The notes beneath the pieces are model-generated. The model was not told the DNA's origin, ran no database searches, and worked only from the letters and a program-made list of their open reading frames with translations. A stretch of DNA of 64,000 nucleotides. Origin: an uncultured Subdoligranulum sp. Lineage in GTDB: Bacteria; Bacillota; Clostridia; Oscillospirales; Ruminococcaceae. A program made the translations under genes and the position numbers. Within the stretch, counting starts at the first letter, position 1; each line of letters begins with the position of its first letter. Shown here one piece after another: positions 42,350 through 46,663 of this stretch. The stretch lies in contig CAJFMB010000002.1 of the NCBI GenBank assembly GCA_904390925.1, positions 1 to 64,000 of the forward strand. Reading direction: 5' to 3'.

Positions 42350-43090
42350 ATGATTGATTTTGAACATGTCACCAAGGTATATGAAACCCAGAACGACGAG
42401 AATGTCGCCCTGGAGGACATCAATCTGCATATCGACGACGGCGAGTTTGTCTTTGTGCTGGGCCATTCCGGTGCCGGTAAATCCACCTTCCTCAAGCTGA
42501 TTCTTCTGGAGGAAAAATGCACCGAAGGCGCCGTCATCATCAACGGTCAGGACATTGGCCGTCTCAAGCGACGCAAGGTGCCCTACATGCGTCGGCAGAT
42601 GGGCGTGGTGTTTCAGGACTTCCGTCTGATCCCCACCATGACCGCCTATGAAAATGTGGCGTTTGCCATGCGTGTCACCAACATTTCCACCCGCCAGATC
42701 CGCAAGCGCGTGCCCTATGTGCTGGGCCTGGTTGGCCTGGGCGACAAGATGGACCGGCTGCCGGATGAACTTTCCGGCGGCGAACAGCAGCGTGTGGCGC
42801 TGGCCCGCGCGCTGGCCCATGGCCCCAAGCTGATCATCGCCGACGAGCCCACCGGCAACATTGACCCGGAAATGAGCTTTGAGATGATGGAGCTGTTGTC
42901 TGCCATCAACAGTGTGGGCATCACCGTGGTGGTGGTTACCCATGAGCATGAGCTGGTTCGCCGGTTCAAAAAGCGTGTGGTCACCCTCTCGCACGGGCGG
43001 ATCGCCTCCGACACGGCCCACCCCGAGGTGGCCAAGGAGTTTGTGGCATCCGGCGGGCAGCTGCCCCACGAGCTTGATTTTTCACACTGA
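42350..43090 (+). CDS. ftsE: cell division ATP-binding protein FtsE
   Basis: MIDFEHVTKVYETQNDENVALEDINLHIDDGEFVFVLGHSGAGKSTFLKLI; LSGGEQQRVALARAL. Confidence 0.96.
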   Translation: MIDFEHVTKVYETQNDENVALEDINLHIDDGEFVFVLGHSGAGKSTFLKLILLEEKCTEGAVIINGQDIGRLKRRKVPYMRRQMGVVFQDFRLIPTMTAYENVAFAMRVTNISTRQIRKRVPYVLGLVGLGDKMDRLPDELSGGEQQRVALARALAHGPKLIIADEPTGNIDPEMSFEMMELLSAINSVGITVVVVTHEHELVRRFKKRVVTLSHGRIASDTAHPEVAKEFVASGGQLPHELDFSH

Positions 43091-43108: not shown

Positions 43109-44014
43109 ATGCGTTTTTCCAGTTTTACATATCTTGTGCGGCAGGGCCTGCATAACATGTGGGCCAACCGCCTGATGACCTTTGCGTCGATGGGCGTGCT
43201 GACCGTCTGTATGATTCTGATTGGCGTGGCCTATCTGCTGGGCGCCAATGTGGATTCCATTGTGGAGTATATCGGCAACCAGAACGAGACGGTCGTCTAT
43301 CTGGACGACGGCCTGACCGAGGAACAACTGGCGTCGGTGGACAGTGCCATCCGCTCCACCCCGGGTGTGGTTTCCGCCACCTATGTCTCCCCGGAAGATG
43401 TGCTGGCCAATTACAGTTCCATGCTGGATGATTACGCCAACATGTACGAGGCCTTTGAAAACGACAACCCCTTCTCGGCCAACTACCGCGTGGTGGTCAA
43501 TGACATCACCCAGCTGGATCAGATTTCAGAGCAGCTGGATCAGATCGAAGGCGTGGCTGACGTCCATGCTCCGCTGGAACTGTCGGATGCCTTCACCGCC
43601 ATCCAGAAGGTGGTCAATTACGTCAGCTATGGTCTGGTGGCGGTGCTGGCCATCGTCAGTATTGTGGTCATCAACAACACCATCCGCATCACCGTCTATG
43701 CCCGCCGCAAGGAAATTGCCATCATGAAACTGGTGGGTGCCACCAACGGCTTTATCCGGTTTCCCTTCTTTGTGGAAGGCACTACCTCCGGCCTGATTTC
43801 GGCCACCATTGCCTCCGGCGTTGTCTGCGGCGCCTACTATGCGGCATGCCAGTGGTACGTCAACAACCCCACCACCTTCTCGCAGATGTTTGGCGGGCAG
43901 TTGGTTCCTCTGCTGGATGTGTGGTACTATATTGTCATTGGCTTCTTTGCGCTGGGCTTTGTGCTGTGCGGTATCGGTACCGCCACCAGCATCCGCAAGC
44001 ACCTCAACGTCTGA
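43109..44014 (+). CDS. ftsX: permease-like cell division protein FtsX
   Basis: Adjacent to ftsE; MRFSSFTYLVRQGLHNMWANRLMTFASMGVLTVCMIL; C-terminal FtsX TM domain. Confidence 0.95.
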   Translation: MRFSSFTYLVRQGLHNMWANRLMTFASMGVLTVCMILIGVAYLLGANVDSIVEYIGNQNETVVYLDDGLTEEQLASVDSAIRSTPGVVSATYVSPEDVLANYSSMLDDYANMYEAFENDNPFSANYRVVVNDITQLDQISEQLDQIEGVADVHAPLELSDAFTAIQKVVNYVSYGLVAVLAIVSIVVINNTIRITVYARRKEIAIMKLVGATNGFIRFPFFVEGTTSGLISATIASGVVCGAYYAACQWYVNNPTTFSQMFGGQLVPLLDVWYYIVIGFFALGFVLCGIGTATSIRKHLNV

Positions 44015-44056: not shown

Positions 44057-45283
44057 TTGCATTCCACCCGTGTATCATTGAAAAAATCCATTTCCCTTCT
44101 GCTCAGTCTGGTGATGGCAGCGGCGCTGTGTATCTCCGCTTCGCTGCCGGCAAAGGCCGATGACAAGCTGGACGAACTGCTGGACCAGAAAAATCAGCTG
44201 CAGGATCAGCTGGACTCCATCAATCAGCAGATCAAGGACAACGAAGCCGGCCTGGCGGACGCCAAGGAACAGAGCGAACTGTTGCAGCAACAGCAGGATG
44301 TGATCAAGCAGCAGATTTCCGTGATCCAGTCCCAGCGCAACGACGTGAGCAACCAGATCACCGACAAACAGGCCGAAGTGGTGGCCAAGCAGGAAGAACT
44401 GGACCAGAAACAGGCGGAGATTGACTCCCGCTGGGAGGATTTCAAGCTGCGGATGAAGGCCATGCAGCGGCTGAATGACGGCGGTTCCATCGCCCTGCTG
44501 TCGGCGGTTACCAACCTGTATGAGCTGCTCAGCTTCCAGCAGACGCTGGAGGACATCTACGACAAGGACGAGGAAGTCCTGGCGGAGATGGATGCCCAGT
44601 ATGATGAGCTGAATACCCAGAAGCAGGAACTGGAAAACGAGCAGGCCGAGCTGGAGGCCAGCCTTGCCACGCTGGAAGACCTGGGCAACCAGCTGGACAG
44701 CAAGGAAAGCGAGCTGCAGTCCAACCTGGACCAGACGAACGCCCAGATCACAGCGGCGGAGGCCATGGCGGAAACGCTGAGCGCCGAATACGCCGAGACA
44801 GAAGCGGCCTTCAATGAGGCGGCCGACGCCTATGACTCCTACCTGCAGGAATCGCTGAAACAGTATGACAACAGTGTGCAGATTCACTGCTCGCTGAACT
44901 TCATCAACCCGCTGAACAGCTACAAGTACATTTCCTGCTACTTCGGTGACGGCGGCCACGGCGGTACCGACTTTGCGGCCCCCGGCGGCACCGAGATTCA
45001 TGCCATGGCGGACGGTGTTGTCACCAACGCCACCTACCATTACAGCTATGGCTACTATGTCATGATTACCCACGGCCGGGCTGATGACGGCAACACCTAT
45101 GCCACCCTTTACGCCCACATGAATTCGGCACCGGTGGTCAGCGTTGGCCAGACGGTCACGCAGGGTCAGCTGCTGGGCTATGTGGGCACCACCGGCAATT
45201 CCACCGGCAACCACCTGCACCTGGAGCTGCGCATCAATGGTGTGCGGTCCAACGTGCTGCCCTACATTTCCTACCACAAATAA
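44057..45283 (+). CDS. coiled-coil murein hydrolase activator/M23 peptidase (EnvC-like)
   Basis: Signal peptide, long Gln/Glu-rich coiled coil, LytM domain HGGTDFAAPGGTEIHAMADG...TGNHLHLEL. Confidence 0.93.
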   Translation: MHSTRVSLKKSISLLLSLVMAAALCISASLPAKADDKLDELLDQKNQLQDQLDSINQQIKDNEAGLADAKEQSELLQQQQDVIKQQISVIQSQRNDVSNQITDKQAEVVAKQEELDQKQAEIDSRWEDFKLRMKAMQRLNDGGSIALLSAVTNLYELLSFQQTLEDIYDKDEEVLAEMDAQYDELNTQKQELENEQAELEASLATLEDLGNQLDSKESELQSNLDQTNAQITAAEAMAETLSAEYAETEAAFNEAADAYDSYLQESLKQYDNSVQIHCSLNFINPLNSYKYISCYFGDGGHGGTDFAAPGGTEIHAMADGVVTNATYHYSYGYYVMITHGRADDGNTYATLYAHMNSAPVVSVGQTVTQGQLLGYVGTTGNSTGNHLHLELRINGVRSNVLPYISYHK

Positions 45284-45321: not shown

Positions 45322-45423
45322 ATGAAACACAAACTTGGCGTGCGCATTCTTTGCCTGTGCATTGCTGCGCTGATGTGCCTGACACTGTTTGGCTCTGCCA
45401 TCGCATCACTTTCCATACTGTGA
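45322..45423 (+). CDS. 33-aa putative membrane microprotein (MKHKLGVRILCLCIAALMCLTLFGSAIASLSIL)
   Basis: Translated by hand: ATG 45322 to TGA 45421-45423; AAGGGGG Shine-Dalgarno-like sequence upstream; below the ORF-track cutoff. Confidence 0.5.
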   Translation: MKHKLGVRILCLCIAALMCLTLFGSAIASLSIL

Positions 45424-45454: not shown

Positions 45455-46663
45455 ATGAGTAAGAAAATCAGTCTGAGCGTGGCGCTCACCATTATGCTGA
45501 TCGCCATGGCGGTGACCTTCTCGGTCACCATGGCCTTCTCGCAGAACATGTTCAACAACAGTGTCACCAGCGTCAAAAGCCGGGAACGCATGTACAACAA
45601 GCTCTCGGAAATTGACCGCTATGCACGTGCCAACGAATACTTCGACATTGATGAGGATACCCTCAACGACACCATTGCCTCCGGCTATATGCTGGGCATC
45701 AGCGACCGGTATGCCCGTTACTACTCGGTGCAGCAGTACAGCGAGCTGATGGGCACCCAGTCGGGGCGCCTGATGGGCATCGGTGTGTCGGTGGTCAAGG
45801 ATTCCTCCTCCGGCTATGCCCGGATTCTCCGCGTTTATGAAAACTCTCCGGCTGCCGAGGTGGGCATGCAGGAAGGCGGCTTCCTCACATCCATCGGGGA
45901 TACCAGCCTGCGCAGCCTGAGTGATACCTCGGCGGTGCAGTCGGCCCTGCTGGGCGAGGAGGGCAGCACAGTCTCCATCGGGTATCTGGCCCCCGACCAC
46001 ACTGAACAGACCTACACCATCACCCGCGCCAACTATACCACGGCCACTGTGTTCAGTCAGATGCTTGACGGCAACTGTGCCTATATTGACATTGACGACT
46101 TCTCCGCCACCACCGGCACCGAGTTCCGCAGCGCGGTGGACGACATGCGGGGACAAGGTGCCACCAGCTTTGTGTTTGATCTGCGGGATAATTCCGGCAC
46201 CAATCTGAACGCCGCCCTGGTTGCGGCAGACTACTGTGTGCCTTCCGGCCTGATTGCCCAGAGCCAGGCCAAGGATGGAACCACCACCGATCTTCGTGTC
46301 TCGGATGACACCGAGATCACCCAGCCGATGGTCTGCATTGTCAATGGCAACACCGCCGGCGGCGCCGAACTGTTTGCCAACGCGCTGCGCAAGATGGCCG
46401 ATGTGTCGCTGGTGGGCAGCACCACTGCGGGACAGGGCGTTGTCCTGTCCGAGCCGCAGAGCCTGTCGGACGGCAGTGCCATTGTCATCACGGTGGGGCT
46501 GATTCTGGATAACGAAGACCAGTCCTGGAACGGTACCGGTCTGACGCCGGATGTGGAAGTGACGCTTTCCGCCGATGAGATGAACAACTATTACGATTTC
46601 ACAGTGGATACCGATCCGCAGATCCAGCGTGCCGTCGCAGCCGTGCAGGCGCTGGTCGGCTAA
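45455..46663 (+). CDS. S41-family (CtpA/Tsp-like) PDZ protein lacking the canonical catalytic dyad
   Basis: PDZ-like segment GIGVSVVKDSSSGYARILRVYENSPAAEVGM; FDLRDNSGTNLNAALVAADYCVPSG; catalytic regions read VNGNTAGGAELFA and GSTTAGQGVV. Confidence 0.88.
   Translation: MSKKISLSVALTIMLIAMAVTFSVTMAFSQNMFNNSVTSVKSRERMYNKLSEIDRYARANEYFDIDEDTLNDTIASGYMLGISDRYARYYSVQQYSELMGTQSGRLMGIGVSVVKDSSSGYARILRVYENSPAAEVGMQEGGFLTSIGDTSLRSLSDTSAVQSALLGEEGSTVSIGYLAPDHTEQTYTITRANYTTATVFSQMLDGNCAYIDIDDFSATTGTEFRSAVDDMRGQGATSFVFDLRDNSGTNLNAALVAADYCVPSGLIAQSQAKDGTTTDLRVSDDTEITQPMVCIVNGNTAGGAELFANALRKMADVSLVGSTTAGQGVVLSEPQSLSDGSAIVITVGLILDNEDQSWNGTGLTPDVEVTLSADEMNNYYDFTVDTDPQIQRAVAAVQALVG

Follow-up and report, generated by a model that had tools for sequence, protein, structure and literature searches.

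A likely pseudoprotease of the S41 C-terminal-processing type in the ftsEX operon of Gemmiger-like gut bacteria

The ftsE-ftsX-M23-S41 locus and its S41 protein

The window analysed here, a 64,000-nucleotide stretch from a Gemmiger-like genome (2.14 Mb, 85% complete), contains a division locus whose genes are all read on the forward strand. It begins with FtsE, the division ATP-binding protein (42350..43090; NCBIfam TIGR02673, 283 bits against a cut-off of 264.85), and FtsX with its extracellular domain (43109..44014; NF038347 FtsX_Gpos, 240 bits against a cut-off of 225; PF18075 FtsX_ECD). These are followed by an EnvC-like hydrolase with a coiled coil and a LytM/M23 domain (44057..45283; PF01551, 6.6e-28), a 33-residue open reading frame (45322..45423) and an S41 protein of the C-terminal processing protease (CTP) type (45455..46663, 402 residues; PF03572, AF2, Foldseek). 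Throughout the family and the order Oscillospirales the operon keeps the conserved layout ftsE-ftsX-M23-S41, and the linkage to ftsEX on which the sequence-only reading had built is real. Its statement that ctpB sits beside ftsEX in Bacillus subtilis is borne out by the literature (PMC5072692).

The AF2 model of the M23 protein (pLDDT 84.8) consists of two long helices and a β domain, corresponding to a coiled-coil hairpin and LytM, and its best PDB matches are the V. cholerae FtsE/FtsX/EnvC structure 8tzl and EnvC-FtsX 6tpi. The metal-binding and catalytic H-D-H-H residues are retained in the window and in 54 loci in which the neighbouring S41 protein has lost its dyad, and degeneration of M23 in step with S41 was thus not seen. 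The window's genome also contains a second full-length coiled-coil M23 paralogue, with 44% identity (G000:C32:4572-5771). The small open reading frame between M23 and S41 encodes a single hydrophobic helix, MKHKLGVRILCLCIAALMCLTLFGSAIASLSIL, is often preceded by a purine-rich ribosome binding site and has a pN/pS of 0.46. Its homologues were recovered from virtually all Gemmiger and from roughly ten related genera, alongside an intact or a dead S41 alike, and we regard it as a candidate for a small membrane protein that partners FtsX or S41.

The S41 protein is composed of an N-terminal membrane helix, a PDZ region (residues 105–187; 45767..46015) and a protease core, and its closest named loci are from Gemmiger species (76–84% protein identity). 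Peptidase_S41 (PF03572) matches residues 208–369 (E 6.5e-32, 110.8 bits, cut-off 24) and PDZ_6 matches residues 124–175 (E 1.3e-6, 28.5 bits, cut-off 27); PDZ_2 and PDZ also match the PDZ region, in which the scaffold glycines are kept. The AF2 model, built from an alignment of 94 orthologues, has a mean pLDDT of 91.4 and a pTM of 0.82 and shows the same arrangement of a long N-terminal helix, PDZ and core. By sequence the closest solved proteins are Pseudomonas aeruginosa CtpA and B. subtilis CtpB, which Foldseek also returned with the model (CtpA 8sxe, E 1.2e-29; CtpB 4c2c, E 2.8e-29), the latter, a crystal of the active state, with a TM score of 0.70. The subfamily models were not reached: the protein scores 153.6 bits with TIGR00225 prc (NCBIfam; cut-off 218.6) and 158.1 bits with NF045589, CtpB proper (cut-off 633). 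It is structurally a CTP, with the PDZ inserted ahead of the core, yet it lies outside the catalytic definition of that group, as its active site reads Gly302, Gln327 and Leu331.

The catalytic site of CtpB is formed by Ser309, Lys334 and Gln338, and the Q338E substitution by itself abolishes activity (PMC3808539). In alignments to solved CTPs, the codon GGC at 46358..46360 places Gly302 at the position of the nucleophile Ser309, and CAG at 46433..46435 places Gln327 at that of the general base Lys334; the open reading frame and motifs quoted in the sequence-only reading are present and were correctly assigned. Two further losses lie beyond the pair noted there. Leu331 (46445..46447) replaces the third triad residue, Gln338 of CtpB, which is glutamine in 100% of the intact f1 orthologues, and Thr249 (46199..46201) replaces the second glycine of the N-x-G-G loop, which is 98–100% conserved in intact orthologues and which we take to be the oxyanion hole position. 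The protein is therefore very likely proteolytically dead, as judged from its sequence. In addition, the position of Arg168, which in CtpB is the substrate sensor linking the binding of a PDZ ligand to activity, is leucine in most Gemmiger S41 proteins. The coupling to PDZ ligands may thus be changed or gone, in line with the loss of a catalytic switch.

Loss of catalytic residues in Gemmiger and across Oscillospirales

The S41 gene was found in 32 of the 35 Gemmiger-group genomes searched, including all 19 that are at least 90% complete. Its 30 distinct sequences, which include those of two single-contig genomes, form one clade with 100% support, and the serine, glutamine and oxyanion glycine are absent from all 30. 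Position 302 is Gly in 27, Ala in two and Gln in one; position 331 is Leu in 22 and Met in eight; and position 249 is never Gly, being occupied by Glu (20 of the 30), Asp, Ser or Thr. Position 327 differs from these in that lysine is kept in 24; it is Gln in the clade to which the window belongs and either Met or Arg in two more. As the serine, glutamine and glycine are lost throughout and the lysine in some only, the lysine was probably lost later. The description of both dyad residues as replaced thus applies to the window, whereas genus-wide only the serine is always lost; correspondingly, of the TAGGA...TAGQG pair the serine replacement holds among all the orthologues and the lysine replacement does not. 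Close relatives with an intact dyad, which would have implied a strain-specific error, were not found within the genus (0/30 retain the serine), and we reject such an error since the loss is genus-wide and present in the single-contig genomes too. Internal stops are absent from the orthologues listed with the exception of one, G034:C229:1393-2595, which is interrupted by a TAG.

Loss of the dyad extends beyond Gemmiger. Counting a dyad as lost when Ser and/or Lys is gone, but not when Ser is changed to Cys with Lys kept, it is lost in 24 of the 126 genera that were sampled with an operon-linked S41 (16 in the window's family, three each in f10 and f24 and one each in f16 and f19), and the replacing residues vary among genera (G, A, Q, R, N, Y, D, F). 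On an S41 tree computed with the catalytic columns excluded, at least 17 changes are needed, only four of which are forced by the best-supported branches. As judged from this tree, the dyad has been lost repeatedly, in Gemmiger separately from over twenty related genera. Elsewhere in Clostridia it was lost in 0 of 70 S41 proteins (0/62 genera), 33 of which are ftsX- or ftsE-linked, in a sample that preferred the strongest matches per genome and in which weak dead copies could be hidden. The difference is significant against all of these genera (24/126 versus 0/62, Fisher p = 3.8e-5) and against the ftsX/E-linked ones (24/126 versus 0/31, p = 0.0045). Unlinked S41 paralogues of about 500 residues have an intact dyad in 19/19 genera (p = 0.043), an earlier and smaller version of this control having been non-significant (0/13 genera, p = 0.12); as the unlinked control is marginal, the weight rests on the wider Clostridia comparison.

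Family f10 carries two S41 genes in tandem after M23, the first dead and the second intact (L233, L239, L242). In the first copy the nucleophile is replaced by Asp or Gly and, in most cases, the lysine by Ile, Leu or Asn, an arrangement that looks as if binding and cutting had been shared out between the two genes. Two individual cases differ in their route. In L144 (genus g52) Cys takes the place of the nucleophile Ser while Lys, Gln and the oxyanion loop are intact, and this protein is possibly an active cysteine version. Genus g111 (L157, L159, L018) shows the opposite route, with Gln in place of Lys in 3/3, the serine kept alongside a changed loop glycine in two and absent from the third.

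We also considered whether another live CTP has taken over. No second recognisable S41 gene was found in the window's genome (85% complete assembly), including the intact CtpA whose possible presence the sequence-only reading had raised, and nearly all dyad-lost genomes likewise have a lone S41. The extra S41-like frames of five Gemmiger genomes are distant (26–41 bits) and lack the CTP lysine motif. Such replacement, absent from the window's own genome and rare in dyad-lost genomes, was rejected.

A proposed binding role and its alternatives

The reading that we lean towards, with modest confidence, is that the S41 protein is a natural pseudoprotease kept by selection for binding and not for cutting, an adaptor or holdase for an FtsEX-linked wall hydrolase. 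It would bind its partner at the C-terminus or at an unfolded tail and would hold it without degrading it, so that a degrader of wall hydrolases would have turned into a binder of them. The likeliest partner would be the adjacent EnvC-like M23 hydrolase and/or FtsX; this partner and the direction of control we infer, around a degenerate site, a conservation and an operon that are observed directly. Two precedents bear on the proposal. A CtpA Ser-to-Ala mutant used as a trap brought down MepM, an M23 enzyme and CtpA substrate (PMC6050968), and a triad triple mutant of Helicobacter pylori CtpA still forms its hexamer and holds peptide so firmly that denaturation is needed to strip the substrate (PMC12749690). 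In the light of these, a triad-less CTP beside FtsEX is best read as a binder of the hydrolase or of FtsX. The recurrence of dyad loss suggests, moreover, that binding is the side of its function that selection retains at the ftsEX locus. More tentatively, and with somewhat less than even confidence, the S41 protein can be viewed as a structural third component of an Oscillospirales FtsEX-M23 machine, in which the role would be binding and proteolysis would be dispensable and hence repeatedly disabled, f10 having divided the two tasks between a dead and a live copy.

A variant of this proposal, which we consider rather unlikely, is that S41 partners FtsX or the small membrane protein and not M23, for instance as a structural arm of the FtsEX assembly. 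S41 lies right after ftsX, with no M23 between them, in g19, g49 and a single Gemmiger genome, M23 homologues being located elsewhere in these genomes, and the 33-residue frame stays with S41 in the M23-less loci of g19 and of the Gemmiger genome. As S41 stays beside ftsX in these loci too, the partner may be FtsX or the small protein, either in place of M23 or in addition to it; the N-terminal membrane-helix region, the best conserved part of the Gemmiger proteins, points the same way. Against this, M23 does lie between ftsX and S41 in most genomes, and M23 enzymes are among the known CTP substrates (PMC6050968).

A second alternative is decay, in which proteolysis is unneeded in gut bacteria and the gene drifts to loss with no non-proteolytic function selected. 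Dyad-lost lineages do evolve faster (root-to-tip 1.37 versus 0.94, and 1.72 in Gemmiger), which also fits partial relaxation, and 17 of the 157 genomes of the order have no S41 at all. However, intact relatives share about 85 columns with a conservation of at least 85%, and among these the strong departures of Gemmiger are confined to 249, 261, 302, 331, 337 and 348, with a weaker one at 368; the remaining ones are essentially fixed (about 100% retained). Some 19 additional positions are invariant in Gemmiger alone. Reading frames are intact and synteny is kept throughout the genus. Likewise dN/dS, estimated by a counting method and not a codon model and thus rough on GC-rich genes, some with N-terminal extensions, is 0.04–0.38 in close Gemmiger pairs, well below 1 and overlapping the values of intact genera (0.09–0.49) and of the M23 neighbour. 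We therefore judge decay improbable: as far as these substitution patterns tell, the Gemmiger S41 is a constrained protein and not a decaying one. The pseudoprotease assignment that the sequence-only reading had proposed is thereby strongly supported, with four catalytic positions changed, a loss shared by the whole genus, purifying selection and no second S41 in the assembly.

It is still less probable, to a degree that leaves it little credence, that catalysis was kept or regained through other residues, such as Cys261/Cys294 or an acidic residue 249 with the remaining lysine. The new invariant residues do cluster at 255–358 and Glu249 is the prevalent residue in Gemmiger, but in the clade of the window residue 249 is Thr or Ser and residue 327 is Gln, a salt bridge between Glu249 and Lys327 was sought by covariation with no clean pattern, no new invariant Ser/Lys pair stands in for the dyad, and the substitutions in other dyad-lost genera are unrelated (Y, R, D, F, N, A). 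Cys261 and Cys294 themselves (46235..46237 and 46334..46336) are invariant in 30/30 Gemmiger, the former being found in no intact relative of the window's family, and could form a disulfide or buried pair. Finally, we reject the idea that dyad loss followed a loss of sporulation, suggested by the role of CtpB in the B. subtilis sigma-K pathway as an auxiliary sporulation signalling protease (PMC6242693), as almost without merit, since both Spo0A and SpoIVB are encoded by the window's genome (on G000:C92), by every other Gemmiger tested and by almost all dyad-lost genomes.

The conserved operon brings together FtsEX, known for activating a wall hydrolase, and a member of the CTP proteases, which are known for degrading such enzymes. 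A protease silenced many times with its gene kept separates a binding role from a cutting role and makes it testable. The interest lies in the recurrence and the operon and not in a single sequence, and little study has been devoted to cell division in Gemmiger and its relatives, which are gut commensals. Full-text searches of part of the open-access literature returned no paper on a functional link between FtsEX and a CTP or on a bacterial CTP-type S41 pseudoprotease.

Comparison with known systems

EnvC, the LytM factor linked to FtsEX, is a catalytically dead activator. The M23 neighbour shares its coiled-coil and LytM layout, and FtsEX-EnvC structures are its best fold matches; the roles are reversed in that the LytM domain of the present locus is intact and it is the S41 neighbour that is dead. 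S41-fold modules used for binding and not for proteolysis are found in IRBP (retinol binding protein 3), which thus shares with our proposal a binding role on this fold and gives a weak sequence match to the S41 protein (9frx). IRBP differs in being a vertebrate retinoid carrier that lacks the PDZ, membrane and ftsEX context. B. subtilis CtpB (S41A) shares the fold, the PDZ insertion, the membrane anchoring and the place beside ftsEX (PMC5072692). It retains Ser309, Lys334 and Gln338 where the Gemmiger-like protein has Gly, Gln and Leu and has also lost the oxyanion glycine, and its locus is unlike the present one, in which M23 separates ftsX from S41. P. aeruginosa CtpA, which acts with LbcA, is the best match in both sequence and fold, but it is an active protease that degrades hydrolases, its substrates including M23 wall hydrolases (PMC6050968). 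The H. pylori CtpA S300A/K325A/Q329A mutant (9ku3), in which the same three positions are gone, folds, oligomerises and retains peptide (PMC12749690). That mutant was engineered, whereas the Gemmiger S41 is natural and has also lost the oxyanion glycine and, mostly, the PDZ sensor arginine.
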